Below are positions 1 to 18,168 of a DNA stretch of 20,903 bases, one piece after another; the first letter of the stretch is position 1; every line of letters begins with the position of its first letter. This DNA comes from a virus: IMG/VR virus record IMGVR_UViG_3300017598_001077, positions 1-20,903 of that record. One strand, given 5' to 3'. Made by a program: the position numbers and the translations under genes. The notes beneath the pieces were generated by a model. That model made no database searches. It was not told where the DNA came from and worked only from the letters and a program-made list of their open reading frames with translations.

Positions 1-38
1 CAACCCGCGAGCCCGAAAAAATCACCGGTTGTTATTAA
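1..38 (+). pseudogene. Truncated 5' copy of the gpW-like gene
   Basis: Bases 1-27 are identical to bases 747-773, which lie near the start of the intact gpW-like gene. Read in the same frame they give TREPEKIT, then run into the left arm of an inverted repeat and stop at TAA 36-38. The upstream end lies outside the window, so it is unknown whether this copy has its own start codon. It looks like the remnant of an interruption or partial duplication of the gpW-like gene. A chimeric contig end is an alternative. Confidence 0.55.
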
Positions 39-6123: not shown

Positions 6124-7080
6124 ATGACACAACAACGCGGAGCAAATGCCGATATTATGATCGGTTTCGAATCTACCTACGGCACGGCGCCGTCCGCCGG
6201 TTATATCCTGCCGGTCAATTCCTGCGGCGTGGTGGGCACCAAAGCCCGCAACACCCCGGCCACTTTAACCGGCACCCGCAACCCGGTGGAACCGTTTACC
6301 GGCAACCAGGACGCCGCCGGCCCCATTGTTGTGCCGGCCGATTCCATCGGTATGGCCCACTGGCTGGCGGCCATGTTCGGCGATCCGATCAGCACCGGTG
6401 CGGATCCCTTTGTACATGAGTATAAAATTGCTGCCTCTCAACCCTCTTTTACCATCGAAAAGGCGTTCGAGGATCTGGCCACCGATGTTTTTGAACGCAT
6501 CACCGGCTGTAAAATATCGTCATTCGGCATGACCGTCGGCGGTGATGGTGAGCTGGTATGCAACATGGATGTGCTGGGCTCCGAGCAGACCGAGGAAAGC
6601 AGCTCCATGGACGCCACGCCGGATACGATTTCGATTGCCAGGGTCAACAATGCCGAAGCGGCCATCCTGGAAGGCGGCGGATCCCTGGCCAATGCCACCG
6701 AACTTTCACTGAATATCGATTTCGGCCTGGATCCAAATTCTTTTGTGATCGGCGGCGGCGGAGTACGCGGAGATATCCCCGAAGGGATTGTGGCCGTGAC
6801 CGGCAATCTTCAAACCCTGTTTGAAAGTGACACCCTGCTGGCCAAGGCCATCGCCGATACCGAGTCAAGCCTGAAAGTCACCATCACCGGCAGTGCCTCC
6901 AGTATTCTGGAATTTGAGATCCAGGAATTGCTTTACGCCGTCAACGGCATCCCGGTGGAAGGTCCCCAGGGCCTGCTGGTCAACTTGGATTTTGCCGGCT
7001 ACTACGCCAACGGCAGTGAGGCCAGCGCGATTGTGGCGCGGGTGACCAATGGGGTGGCGTCTTACGACTTAATTCCATAG
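6124..7080 (+). CDS. Major tail tube protein
   Basis: A 318-residue protein with the layout of the Phage_tube_2 type of siphovirus tail tube protein. The N-terminus GANADIMIGFESTYGTAPSA and TLTGTRNPVEPFTGNQDAAG are typical of the family. Further on come MAHWLAAMFGDP, the FERITGCKISSFGMTVGGDG strand pair with the EL strand after it, and a C-terminal domain around LEFEIQELLYAVNGIPVEGP. Hexamers stack to form the tail tube around the tape measure. GGAG (6112-6115) lies 8 nt before ATG 6124. Surrounded by tail terminator and chaperone genes, the position is the expected one. Confidence 0.85.
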   Translation: MTQQRGANADIMIGFESTYGTAPSAGYILPVNSCGVVGTKARNTPATLTGTRNPVEPFTGNQDAAGPIVVPADSIGMAHWLAAMFGDPISTGADPFVHEYKIAASQPSFTIEKAFEDLATDVFERITGCKISSFGMTVGGDGELVCNMDVLGSEQTEESSSMDATPDTISIARVNNAEAAILEGGGSLANATELSLNIDFGLDPNSFVIGGGGVRGDIPEGIVAVTGNLQTLFESDTLLAKAIADTESSLKVTITGSASSILEFEIQELLYAVNGIPVEGPQGLLVNLDFAGYYANGSEASAIVARVTNGVASYDLIP

Positions 7081-7101: not shown

Positions 7102-7161
7102 TGAATGCGGAAGTCGGAATATGGAAAAAAGTGGGAAGTCGGAATGCGGAATGCGGAAAAA
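7102..7161. repeat. Purine-rich repeat (ggaatgcgg type), copy 1
   Basis: Degenerate units (gaatgcggaagtcggaatatgg, 7103-7124, shown here only by position) are followed at 7131-7161 by a 31-bp segment identical to 17809-17839. It consists of gtgggaagtcggaatgcgg and a repeated gcgg unit. Unlike the other elements there is no complementary pyrimidine arm. It occupies the gap between tail tube and chaperone genes. Confidence 0.85.
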
Positions 7162-7177
7162 AAGAATGTGAGGGAAG

Positions 7178-7441
7178 ATGAGAGAAATCGAGATCAATAA
7201 AAAGTCATTTAACGTTCGTGGGCTGACACGCGGCGAAATTAAAAAGCTGCGCAAGGATGGCATTAATCTTGTGACGTTAACGAGAGAAAACGCAGACGAA
7301 GTCGTCGACAAAGTTTTCGGCCTGGTGTTTGATGCCGAAACCGTGGACGTCATCGACGATATGCCCAACAGCGCGGCCATGGAGCTGTGGCAGGCGGTAC
7401 TCAAGGAGACCTACGGCGCCTGGGATGAGGAAAAAAACTGA
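7178..7441 (+). CDS. Tail assembly chaperone, short form (gpG-like)
   Basis: An 87-residue protein: MREIEINKKSFNVRGLTRGE, then a KLRKDGINLVTL segment and a C-terminal helix ending WQAVLKETYGAWDEEKN. Size, acidic helical character and place between tail tube and tape measure match the gpG role in lambda, which coats the tape measure during tube assembly. AGGGA (7171-7175) lies close before ATG 7178. The frame ends with a slippery A AAA AAC directly before the TGA, so a fraction of ribosomes should continue into the gpGT-like form. Confidence 0.8.
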   Translation: MREIEINKKSFNVRGLTRGEIKKLRKDGINLVTLTRENADEVVDKVFGLVFDAETVDVIDDMPNSAAMELWQAVLKETYGAWDEEKN

Positions 7442-7827
7442 CTGAGGTCTGGGCCTGGCACTCGGACCGCGAAAGAATCAAATATTGCAAACACTGCCGC
7501 AAAGCAAAAAGGCTGGAAAGCAAGGAAGCCCGGAAGCGGGGAAGCGGAAAAGCCGAAAAGCCTTCCAGCCTCACAGCCTCCCAGCCTCCTTGCTTAACTT
7601 GCAGTTACGGCACGGCCCCGGACCTGATGACGCAAAATCAGGAAGCCTGGGAGCTTTGGGGCGAGATCCAGACCCAGTGGCGGGCGGGAGCGTTAGGGAT
7701 CATCGGTCTGGATTACAACGCTGTATATGCCGAGGCTGCCAGGCTCGAGATCGAACTGTCAAGATGTACCATGAACAAAGTCAAAGCGCTGGAACGGTGG
7801 ACTTTAAGAATGATGAATGACGATTGA
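7178..7827 (+). CDS. Tail assembly chaperone, frameshifted long form (gpGT-like, DUF1799 end)
   Basis: A -1 shift at 7432-7438 joins the 87-residue chaperone to a second frame that is open from 7438 to TGA 7825-7827, giving about 216 residues. The added part starts LTEVWAWHSDRERIKYC, carries paired cysteines C104/C107 (CKHC) and C139/C142 (CLTC) suggestive of a zinc site, and ends with a DUF1799-like domain (EAWELWGEIQTQWRAGALGI then GLDYNAVYAEAARLEIE). DUF1799-type proteins commonly follow tail chaperones. In lambda the GT form recruits tail tube subunits to the tape measure. Residues 110-136, between the cysteine pairs, are encoded by a repeat element (7511-7600). The last residues (NDD) and stop lie inside another repeat. 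An independent start at ATG 7627 has no ribosome binding site. Confidence 0.75.
7432..7468 (+). promoter_or_regulatory. Programmed -1 ribosomal frameshift signal
   Basis: The heptamer A AAA AAC (7432-7438) is in the correct zero-frame phase, with the stop codon following at once (7439-7441). After a 7-nt spacer (7439-7445) comes a stem of 8 pairs: GGTCTGGG (7446-7453) with CTCGGACC (7461-7468), two pairs being G-U, and a 7-nt loop CCTGGCA. Heptamer, spacing and stem meet the usual description of bacterial -1 frameshift sites. Confidence 0.8.
7511..7600. repeat. Purine-rich hairpin repeat (ggctggaa type) inside a coding frame
   Basis: The purine arm ggctggaaagcaaggaagcc (7511-7530) continues in ggaagcgg-like units and is answered by a pyrimidine arm with tccagcc, cagcctcccagcc and tccttgc (about 7561-7591). 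The outer pairing is ggctgga with tccagcc, and gcaagga with tccttgc. The element keeps the DUF1799 frame open and falls between the two CxxC pairs of the frameshifted chaperone. Confidence 0.65.
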
Positions 7828-7903: not shown

Positions 7904-8482
7904 ATGATCAAAGCGCAAGTTAAAGGATTTAAACACCTGCAGCGCAATCTCAAGGCTGAATCAAAGCGCCAGAAAAAGGCCCTAGACACGGCCGTGCGTG
8001 TGGAAGGTTTTCGCTTGAGCAAGCTTTTAAAAAAAGAGATCCGTTCCGGCAGCCCTGGCGGGCGCAAGTTTGCACCGCTTTCCTTTATTGCTCGCAAGAG
8101 AATGCATCGCGGCCGCAACGCCCCTTTGCGGCGCCTGGCCATTGCCCTGCGCTATCATATTTTAAAACGCGATCCGCTCCAGATAGAAGTCGGCTGGGCC
8201 GGACCCAGGGTATCCAAGCGCTGGAAGTTTTTAGCCCAGGCCCTCCAGGAAGGTTTCACCGGCACCATGAGCGAGGCCACCCGCGAATCCCTGGCCGAGA
8301 CCGGCGCTAGGCTGGGCAAGCGATCGAAGAACCGCCGCTATTTTTTCTTAAAAAAGTCAACCCGGCGATTTAAAACCCCGGCGCGGCCGATCATGGAACC
8401 ATTCTGGCGAGCTTATCGCGATGACGCCCGGCGTAATATAACCAGTAATTTCCGCCGCAAGATGCGAGGGGAGCGGATATAG
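7904..8482 (+). CDS. Basic tail completion / minor tail protein (gpZ- or HK97 gp10-like)
   Basis: A 192-residue, strongly basic protein. The pattern FRLSKLLKKEIRSGSPGGRK, then KFAPLSFIARKR, PLRRLAIALRYHI and IEVGWAGP is what is seen in neck and tail-completion proteins (HK97 gp10, P2 gpS, lambda gpZ of the same length): a helix, a Pro-Gly turn, L-R-x-L followed by strands. The C-terminus (FFLKKSTRRFKTPARPIMEP, then FWRAY) is a common ending in that group. These proteins join tube end and head. Its place after the chaperone rather than before the tube is less common, so the exact family is uncertain. Only a weak CGGGA lies upstream of ATG 7904. Confidence 0.5.
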   Translation: MIKAQVKGFKHLQRNLKAESKRQKKALDTAVRVEGFRLSKLLKKEIRSGSPGGRKFAPLSFIARKRMHRGRNAPLRRLAIALRYHILKRDPLQIEVGWAGPRVSKRWKFLAQALQEGFTGTMSEATRESLAETGARLGKRSKNRRYFFLKKSTRRFKTPARPIMEPFWRAYRDDARRNITSNFRRKMRGERI

Positions 8483-8626: not shown

Positions 8627-10384
8627 ATGGCAGATCATCGTTTACAAATAATCCTGGCCGCTAAAGACATCACGGGAACGGCCTTCAAGAGATTCCAGGG
8701 CCGCATCGCGGCCATTACGAAATCCGTCTTTTCTTTTAAAGGCGTCCTGGGTGCCCTGGCCGGCGCCGGCGGGTTCGGTTTACTGATCACCAAAAGCCTG
8801 GACGCCGCCGATGCCATCGGCAAGGCCGCCGGTGTAATGGGTATCCATACCGATATTTTACAGGAATACCAGCACGCCGCCGAGCTTTCCGGAGTCGGCA
8901 CCGAGCAGCTCAACAGCTCGTTACAGGCATTTGCCAAACGGCTGGGCGAGGCTCGCAACGGCACCGGCGCCCTGGTGACGTTTTTAAATAAGTTCGATAA
9001 AGAACTTCTTTCTAATTTGCAAAGCGCCAAGGGTACCGCTCCGGCCCTTGATTTGGTTTTTCAGCGTATGGCCAGTCTGGCCGATGCGTCCGATAGGGCC
9101 GCTCTGGCAAGTGCCGCTTTTTCTCGCGCTGGAATTAAAATGGTCAACGTCGTCAAAGACGGCGTGGCAGGCCTGGCTAAGATGAGGCAGGAAGCCCATG
9201 ACATGGGGCTGATCATCAAGGATAGTTTCATTAAGGACGCCGAAAAAGCGAATGATAAATTACACACCTTGAGCAAAGTTATAGAGGCAACTTTTACGAA
9301 GGCCATTGTTGCCAATGCGGATGCGCTTGCCCGTGCCGTGGAAAAAATTACCAATATAACGATTTCATTTGCAAAAGTTTTTGCCGGTCAATCTGAGTTA
9401 GAGCAGGCTCGCCAACGTATTCAGGAAATCCGCCAAAGTATTGAAGAGATTCAGCAAAGCCAGGCACCCGGCAAAAACCGGATGTTAGAATCTCTAAATT
9501 TTGCACTTAAAAGAGCGGAGATCAGAGTTTATTCTTTGGCACAGACCTGGGACGAAAGCACCCGAAATATTGGAAAAGGACTACCAGCCGCCGCCAGATT
9601 CGCGCCGCCCGGCGGCGGATCCCCGCCGCCCGCCGCCCCGGGTTTTTCCGGCATGGATTACGGCCTGGCCATCGGCCGCGGTCTGGAATATGCCGAAGAC
9701 AAAGAGCGCGAACTGACCGAGGCCATCGAGCGCCGCATGGATGCCATGAACGAGGCCTCCCGCCAGGCCGTCGCATCCGGCATGGATTACAGCGAGGCTT
9801 ATACCAAGGCCAATAAAGAAATCGTCGAAACATCAACGGCAGCCGCCGAGGCCGTCGCCGGCGTTTTTGAAAATGCGTCCTATCGCATGTCCGATGCCCT
9901 GGTCGGGTTTGTCGGCGAAGGTAAAATATCATTCAAAGGTTTGGCCGATTCCATAATTGCCGATATGGTCCGTATTCAATCCCAGGCGGCGATCAGCGGT
10001 CTGCTGGAACATCTCCCGAAAATTTTTAGCTTCGGCGACGCCGGTGGACCAGTACCGGCAGGCTCGGGTGGTCGCTCCAAATTCCACCAAGGCGGCGTGG
10101 TCGGCAGCATACCCCGGCTGCATTCCGGTCTGGCGGCCGACGAATACCCGGCCATCCTGCAGCGCGGCGAAACCGTGATACCGCGCGGCAAGTCCGTCGG
10201 CGGCAACGTGCAGGTGATCGTCAACAACCAAAGCGGTCAGCCGTCAAAGGTCACCGAGCGGCGCGGTCCGGACAACACCCGGCAGATATTTGTGATTGTC
10301 GGAAACGACATACGCAATAACGGCCCCATCGCCCAGGCATTCGAGGGTACCTACGGTCTGCGCCGCACCGGCAGGATGGTCTAG
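8627..10384 (+). CDS. Tail tape measure protein
   Basis: A 585-residue protein. The N-terminal part (LQIILAAKDITGTAFKRFQG, then a hydrophobic GVLGALAGAGGFGLLI segment at about 38-55) and the following helices (IGKAAGVMGIHTDILQEYQH, LNSSLQAFAKRLGEAR) are typical of tape measures. Residues 255-310 are coiled coil. A Pro/Gly linker (APPGGGSPPPAAPGF) follows at about 326-340. The C-terminal region (MSDALVGFVGEGKISFKGLA, FHQGGVVG, LQRGETVIPRG) is the lambda gpH-type C-terminal domain. At about 1.5 angstrom per residue the tail would be near 90 nm, short for a siphovirus. AAGGA (8621-8625) precedes ATG 8627. Confidence 0.9.
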   Translation: MADHRLQIILAAKDITGTAFKRFQGRIAAITKSVFSFKGVLGALAGAGGFGLLITKSLDAADAIGKAAGVMGIHTDILQEYQHAAELSGVGTEQLNSSLQAFAKRLGEARNGTGALVTFLNKFDKELLSNLQSAKGTAPALDLVFQRMASLADASDRAALASAAFSRAGIKMVNVVKDGVAGLAKMRQEAHDMGLIIKDSFIKDAEKANDKLHTLSKVIEATFTKAIVANADALARAVEKITNITISFAKVFAGQSELEQARQRIQEIRQSIEEIQQSQAPGKNRMLESLNFALKRAEIRVYSLAQTWDESTRNIGKGLPAAARFAPPGGGSPPPAAPGFSGMDYGLAIGRGLEYAEDKERELTEAIERRMDAMNEASRQAVASGMDYSEAYTKANKEIVETSTAAAEAVAGVFENASYRMSDALVGFVGEGKISFKGLADSIIADMVRIQSQAAISGLLEHLPKIFSFGDAGGPVPAGSGGRSKFHQGGVVGSIPRLHSGLAADEYPAILQRGETVIPRGKSVGGNVQVIVNNQSGQPSKVTERRGPDNTRQIFVIVGNDIRNNGPIAQAFEGTYGLRRTGRMV

Positions 10385-17800: not shown

Positions 17801-18168
17801 AAAAAGAAGTGGGAAGTCGGAATGCGGAATGCGGAAAAATGAAGTTGCTGCGGTTTTTAACTGCGCTGTTGATTTTATTCTTTGCAGCCACTGCCAATGC
17901 CGCCGATGTCAGCCTGTCGTGGGACGCCTCACCGGGAGCTACAGGATACAGGATTTATCAATCTGTAGATCAAGGGATCATTTGGTCTGAAATTGGCGAC
18001 GTGACAGGAACATCAGCGCTTGCAACAGGGATAGCGGACACGGGTTTAGTTCTTTTTCGTATTTCTGCCTATAATACTCAAGGTGAATCGGTTCGAACGT
18101 GGTCCGGTGCCTGGTATAATGGTGATTGGAGACCTATTGATGATCCGGGTGGGGCAGCGGTCGAGTAG
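17797..18168 (+). CDS. Secreted fibronectin type III domain protein
   Basis: A 123-residue protein. A signal peptide (KLLRFLTALLILFFAATANA, cleavage after Ala35) precedes a single FN3 domain (VSLSWDASPGATGYRIYQSV through GLVLFRISAYNTQGES). AAGGAG (17782-17787) lies 9 nt before ATG 17797, and ATG 17797 overlaps the previous stop, so this start is favoured. Codons 4-14 (EVGSRNAECGK) are then encoded by a dispersed repeat (17809-17839), which lengthens the signal peptide n-region. Starting at the second Met (17839) would give a conventional 22-residue signal. The FN3 fold often mediates sugar or surface contact; the function here is unknown. Confidence 0.65.
   Translation: MKKEVGSRNAECGKMKLLRFLTALLILFFAATANAADVSLSWDASPGATGYRIYQSVDQGIIWSEIGDVTGTSALATGIADTGLVLFRISAYNTQGESVRTWSGAWYNGDWRPIDDPGGAAVE
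17809..17839. repeat. Purine-rich repeat (ggaatgcgg type), copy 2, in frame
   Basis: All 31 bases are identical to 7131-7161, about 10.7 kb upstream. Copy 1 is intergenic. Copy 2 lies within the 5' end of the FN3 gene, in frame, between the ribosome-binding start and the signal peptide core. Confidence 0.9.

Follow-up and report, generated by a model that had tools for sequence, protein, structure and literature searches.

Two overlapping frames in a siphovirus tail module

The window, by which we mean the whole 20,903-base stretch of DNA that was analysed, is a virus record with a siphovirus tail module. The gene order is tail tube, probable chaperone, DUF1799, tail completion and tape measure, with two frames between tail tube and tape measure. 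The major tail tube protein gene (6124-7080, +) matched PF18906 Phage_tube_2 at 171.8 bits as well as phrog_290, and the tape measure protein gene (8627-10384, +) matched Tape_meas_lam_C at 51.6 bits as well as phrog_8462. A tail completion-like gene (7904-8482) is situated between DUF1799 and the tape measure gene.

The zero-frame ORF (7178-7441, +) has 87 codons, the upstream sequence GTGAGGGAAG and a probable product of the G-like tail assembly (tape measure) chaperone type. An A AAA AAC heptamer can be read directly from the sequence at 7432-7438 (+). This heptamer is in phase for a -1 slip, since the ORF ends GAG GAA AAA AAC TGA, and it is abutted by the zero-frame TGA stop (7439-7441, +). 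The -1-frame extension (7438-7827, +) is open until 7824, with a stop at 7825-7827, and its translation reads KKLTEVWAWHSDRERIKYC... It would form the C-terminal part of a predicted gpGT-like fusion of 216 aa, for which the junction peptide is EEKKLTEVWAWHSDR. The earliest ATG, GTG or TTG in the -1 frame is ATG 7627, which lies 63 codons in and inside conserved protein, and no clear ribosome binding site was seen before it in the window sequence. The preliminary description had specified the heptamer in this phase, with the TGA directly after it, and had proposed a -1 frame open from 7438 to 7824 that ends in a DUF1799-like domain and lacks a natural start. All of its coordinates proved exact.

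The last 60 residues of the -1 frame matched DUF1799 (PF08809) at 40.3 bits, against a cut-off of 26, and the extension also matched phrog_680 (1.3e-15). The predicted fold of the -1 domain matched proteins that are named tape measure chaperone in phages W011D, F20 and Solomon, with a probability of 1.00 and E between 1.5e-3 and 2.1e-3. The zero-frame window protein had no Pfam match. Its predicted fold (beta-beta-four helices, pLDDT 88) had a tail assembly chaperone as the best viral match, with a probability of 0.99 but a weak E of 0.04, and one aligned relative matched Phage_TAC_7 at 2.5e-5. Judged from the predicted fold and the Phage_TAC_7 match in that one relative, the zero-frame protein is likely, but not certain, to be a tail assembly chaperone. 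The earlier label "gpG-like" has its basis in gene order, the predicted fold and weak profile matches among relatives; the window protein itself gave no direct family match. Sequence and fold searches of the PDB returned nothing useful for either domain, and PADLOC gave no match.

Conservation of the predicted slip site and of the -1 frame

Relatives of this locus were found in IMG/VR, including L002, whose zero-frame protein is 60% identical, L006, L010, L011 and many more; two scans of genome contigs found no confirmed prophage relative. Some loci came from patterns that contained the heptamer or KKL. Because several searches used patterns touching the heptamer in this way, we based the conservation count on a heptamer-independent search, for which the query was the C-terminal 64 residues (DUF1799 only). 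In 20 of 20 loci from this search, A AAA AAC was present in phase where the DUF1799 frame meets the upstream ORF. When all searches were pooled, the heptamer was always A AAA AAC in 30 distinct sequences. The heptamer alone is not rare: the window contains 12 copies of AAAAAAC, where 5.8 would be expected. The locus has the parts of a canonical -1 signal, namely an X XXY YYZ heptamer, a spacer within 5-9 nt and a downstream structure. As judged from the sequences, it is the combination of these parts and its conservation in relatives, not the parts singly, that exceed chance.

The position of the zero-frame stop is not conserved, falling 0 to 41 codons past the heptamer among relatives. In L002 it lies 13 codons beyond the heptamer, and the -1 frame there reads KKLTDVWEWHTDGKRIEYCKKC, compared to KKLTEVWAWHSDRERIKYCKHC in the window. 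An alignment of 23 zero-frame proteins has no invariant residues except the final K and N, which the heptamer encodes. Conservation of the -1 protein extends across the join as far as the slip site, and substitutions pile up at third positions of the -1 frame (571, versus 382 and 284 at the other two). The phase of the frames, the conservation of heptamer, spacer and stem, and the coding constraint across the join are properties of the sequences themselves. Since every close relative examined has the same signal, it is almost surely real.

These data bear on whether DUF1799 might instead be a separate gene, translated from its own start or by reinitiation after the TGA, with the heptamer being incidental. 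ATG 7627 is in frame and would provide such a start, and many GenBank records, for example those of VarioGold, phiES15 and S-CBS3, list DUF1799 as its own CDS. However, ATG 7627 lacks a ribosome binding site and is not conserved, its position being occupied by R, I and R in L006, L011 and L036, respectively. Its use would also leave untranslated the approximately 60 residues before it, which are conserved apart from an insertion and contain CxxC pairs. In 11 of the 20 loci there is no start codon at all between the slip site and the DUF1799 core, and a simple scan of the remaining loci found no Shine-Dalgarno-like motif before their starts. VarioGold itself carries A AAA AAC in the -1 phase, 36 nt upstream of the GTG annotated as the DUF1799 start. 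The zero-frame stops, at 0 to 41 codons past the heptamer, fit no scheme of reinitiation. None of the 20 homologous loci has the arrangement that the preliminary description had named as evidence against frameshifting, a conserved independent ATG with a ribosome binding site and no heptamer. We consider a separate DUF1799 gene very unlikely. The chance that a sequencing error or a degenerating gene accounts for the split frames is practically negligible: nothing beyond the overlap of the frames speaks for it, and the same -1 relation and heptamer recur in tens of contigs as well as in GenBank isolates.

A stem-loop downstream of the heptamer

A putative stimulatory RNA hairpin (7446-7468, +) follows the heptamer after a 7-nt spacer (7439-7445, +), and is supported by its fold, conserved pairing, recoding score and a folding minimum over 46 loci. 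Its 5' arm (7446-7453) is GGTCTGGG / GGUCUGGG and its 3' arm (7461-7468) is CTCGGACC / CUCGGACC. Folding returned the structure previously proposed, with the 7-nt spacer, an 8-bp stem and a loop of 7 nt. Two of the pairs are G-U, and the local fold is about -12 to -13 kcal/mol. The window stem was not stronger than dinucleotide shuffles (z -0.05). As such shuffles are uninformative for the stem alone, we adopted synonymous recoding and positional profiles. By this measure, the stem score of the window exceeded that of synonymous recodings, with p 0.017 at this locus. When the -1 peptide was kept and its codons were exchanged for synonymous ones, the real sequence folded better than its recodings in 26 of 29 loci, with a mean z of -1.5. 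The stem score reached p<0.05 in 15 of the 29, and the folding profile of 46 loci showed a single sharp minimum, with a mean z of -1.6 and a standard error of 0.2, at +4 to +7 nt past the heptamer, although these combined statistics overstate independence because the loci share ancestry. The distant relatives L045, L050, L029 and L031 lacked a simple stem in the comparison of stem scores over 29 loci.

The pairing itself is maintained among relatives. Over the 8-bp stem, 90% of cells were paired in the 14 loci of equal spacing (13 distinct), compared to at most 45% in a slid control with the 3' arm moved by 1-3 columns. The outermost pair in the 13 distinct sequences is G-C in 3, C-G in 3 and open in 7. 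In L037, L040, L042 and L052 the 3' arm is relocated, with CCCGGACC six bases downstream and a loop of 13, whilst alternative arms are found in L020 and L022 (CGCTGGGAGT/ACTCCCGGCG) and in L027 (CGTCGCCCG/CGGGCGACG); the stem in all of these loci still starts 7-8 nt past the heptamer. In the more distant L075, L080, HK578 and LL5, a stem is found at almost this position, but its sequence is unrelated. Overall, the best stem begins 7 or 8 nt past the heptamer in 22 of the 29 loci. From these comparisons, the stem is preserved by a G-C/C-G swap, by relocation of the 3' arm or by unrelated sequences. A comparison of homologues had been suggested at the outset as a check, and its outcome is that heptamer, 7-8 nt spacing and stem pairing are kept, with compensating changes.

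In most relatives GAGGA directly adjoins the heptamer, and we considered it as a Shine-Dalgarno-like upstream stimulator. It codes for the conserved EE, however, and its distance from the heptamer is too short for it to act as in dnaX, so we do not claim this role for it.

The hairpin also bears on a different origin of the fusion, from mRNA fused by transcriptional slippage on the A run. The window has a run of 7 A, which could in principle join these frames in that way. However, the runs are only 6-7 A in length, where known transcriptional slippage sites are usually longer, and the C after the run is invariant. Furthermore, the relatives RC1 and AUS531phi use G GGA AAC, and a hairpin kept at constant spacing would be expected of a ribosomal signal, not of slippage of this kind. 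Transcriptional slippage is thus an extremely unlikely source of the fusion.

Known frameshifts, proposed mechanism and the CxxC linker

The locus resembles lambda G/T in its place between the tail tube and tape measure genes, in its small ORF for a probable chaperone, in a heptameric -1 slip near the end of that ORF, and in a -1 domain that would be made only as part of a fusion. Lambda's heptamer differs from A AAA AAC. Unlike lambda, the window has a recurrent hairpin 7-8 nt downstream, and its -1 domain is DUF1799 with CxxC pairs. Closer counterparts are found in Klebsiella phage Solomon and Escherichia phage LL5 (both Drexlerviridae) and in Serratia phage Smarc2, which have a DUF1799-like -1 domain with a matching predicted fold and have in common with the window phage A AAA AAC, the -1 phase and a stem afterwards. 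The window stem differs from theirs in sequence, and no CxxC pairs were seen in their extensions. The window phage is uncultured and distant from all three, with less than 45% identity in DUF1799. As the GenBank records of Solomon, LL5 and Smarc2 already annotate the homologous frameshift product, the window signal is a new example of a known phage frameshift and not a new system. The g-t frameshift of the haloarchaeal virus HCTV-2 also uses A AAA AAC, but in different hosts (PMC5009743).

The DUF1799 frame is -1 to the upstream ORF in 14 of 14 GenBank phages inspected. Eight have A AAA AAC as the slip site, one A AAA AAG and two G GGA AAC, while the remaining three lack a full heptamer and show a CAAAAG stretch. 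DUF1799 is annotated as stand-alone, despite a -1 heptamer, in VarioGold (L091), phiES15 (L088), S-CBS3 (L084), RC1 (L085) and HK578 (L083), and the VarioGold publication gives it as its own gene (PMC9658991).

Taken together, the sequence evidence makes a programmed -1 ribosomal frameshift like that of lambda gpG/gpGT very probable here, in the gene of a likely tail assembly (tape measure) chaperone. From it we infer slippage, how often it happens and what each of the proteins does, as follows. Most ribosomes translating 7178-7441 would end at the TGA and release the 87-aa chaperone. A minority would stall on meeting the hairpin (7446-7468) while A AAA AAC occupies the decoding sites. The Lys and Asn tRNAs would then move back by one base and pair with AAA AAA, and reading on in the -1 frame as far as 7824 would yield a small amount of the 216-aa fusion ending in DUF1799. 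In lambda, the programmed -1 frameshift (Xu, Hendrix and Duda 2004, as cited in PMC5009743) yields gpG and gpGT in a ratio of about 30:1. There, gpG binds to the tape measure protein and the T part to that of the tail tube (PMC5009743). By analogy, the tape measure protein of the window phage may be coated by the short form, and tail tube subunits may be recruited by the less abundant fusion. The slip rate would then set the ratio of the two forms. One point against the frameshift is that in E. coli, which may not be the host of the window phage, ribosomes slip far less easily on A AAA AAC than on A AAA AAG (PMC5009743). The weak site may suit a low fusion ratio, or the tRNAs of the host may slip more readily.

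We lean towards a broader reading, in which DUF1799 would be, throughout its range, a chaperone extension made only by frameshifting, with a dominant A AAA AAC and a hairpin at fixed distance whose sequence and 3' arm have been repeatedly replaced; the weak site may be tuned for a low fusion ratio. DUF1799, often annotated as stand-alone or as "tape measure", is in the -1 phase from the upstream ORF in all loci examined. Public phage records matching DUF1799 at E 0.05 number 752; should the broader reading be true, several hundred public phage records would often contain a mis-drawn gene. The locus provides a well-supported case of programmed frameshifting in uncultured phages, obtained from one raw sequence. 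With a stem that is kept while its sequence changes, the collected loci are suited to study of the spacing and stability needs of a bacterial -1 signal, and they bear on why A AAA AAC is favoured though weak in E. coli.

The extension of this phage group contains conserved CxxC...CxxC pairs (window 7486-7602, -1 frame), which suggests a putative zinc-binding site; these pairs were not seen in the GenBank DUF1799 phages inspected. In the window, a palindromic repeat with inverted repeats (7510-7595, +), roughly 78 nt and in frame, adds ~26 codons to the CxxC linker of the -1-frame product. The 26 residues are missing from L002, and the repeat is absent in relatives. A scan with the 26-nt palindrome core matched only a near-identical contig. 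The linker seems to tolerate insertions, since L016 and L017 carry other extra residues there. Two families of short repeats, GAAGTCGGAATGCGGAA and GAATGACGAATGACGAAC, occur at gene ends and in intergenic gaps (window 7103-7165 and 17803-17843; 4676, 7815 and 10385). Window positions 1-27 are an exact copy of 747-773, a duplication that is possibly an assembly artefact at the contig start, and 623-666 contains the short tandem repeat GCACAAACCCGGTATAATCCCG in two exact copies 22 nt apart.
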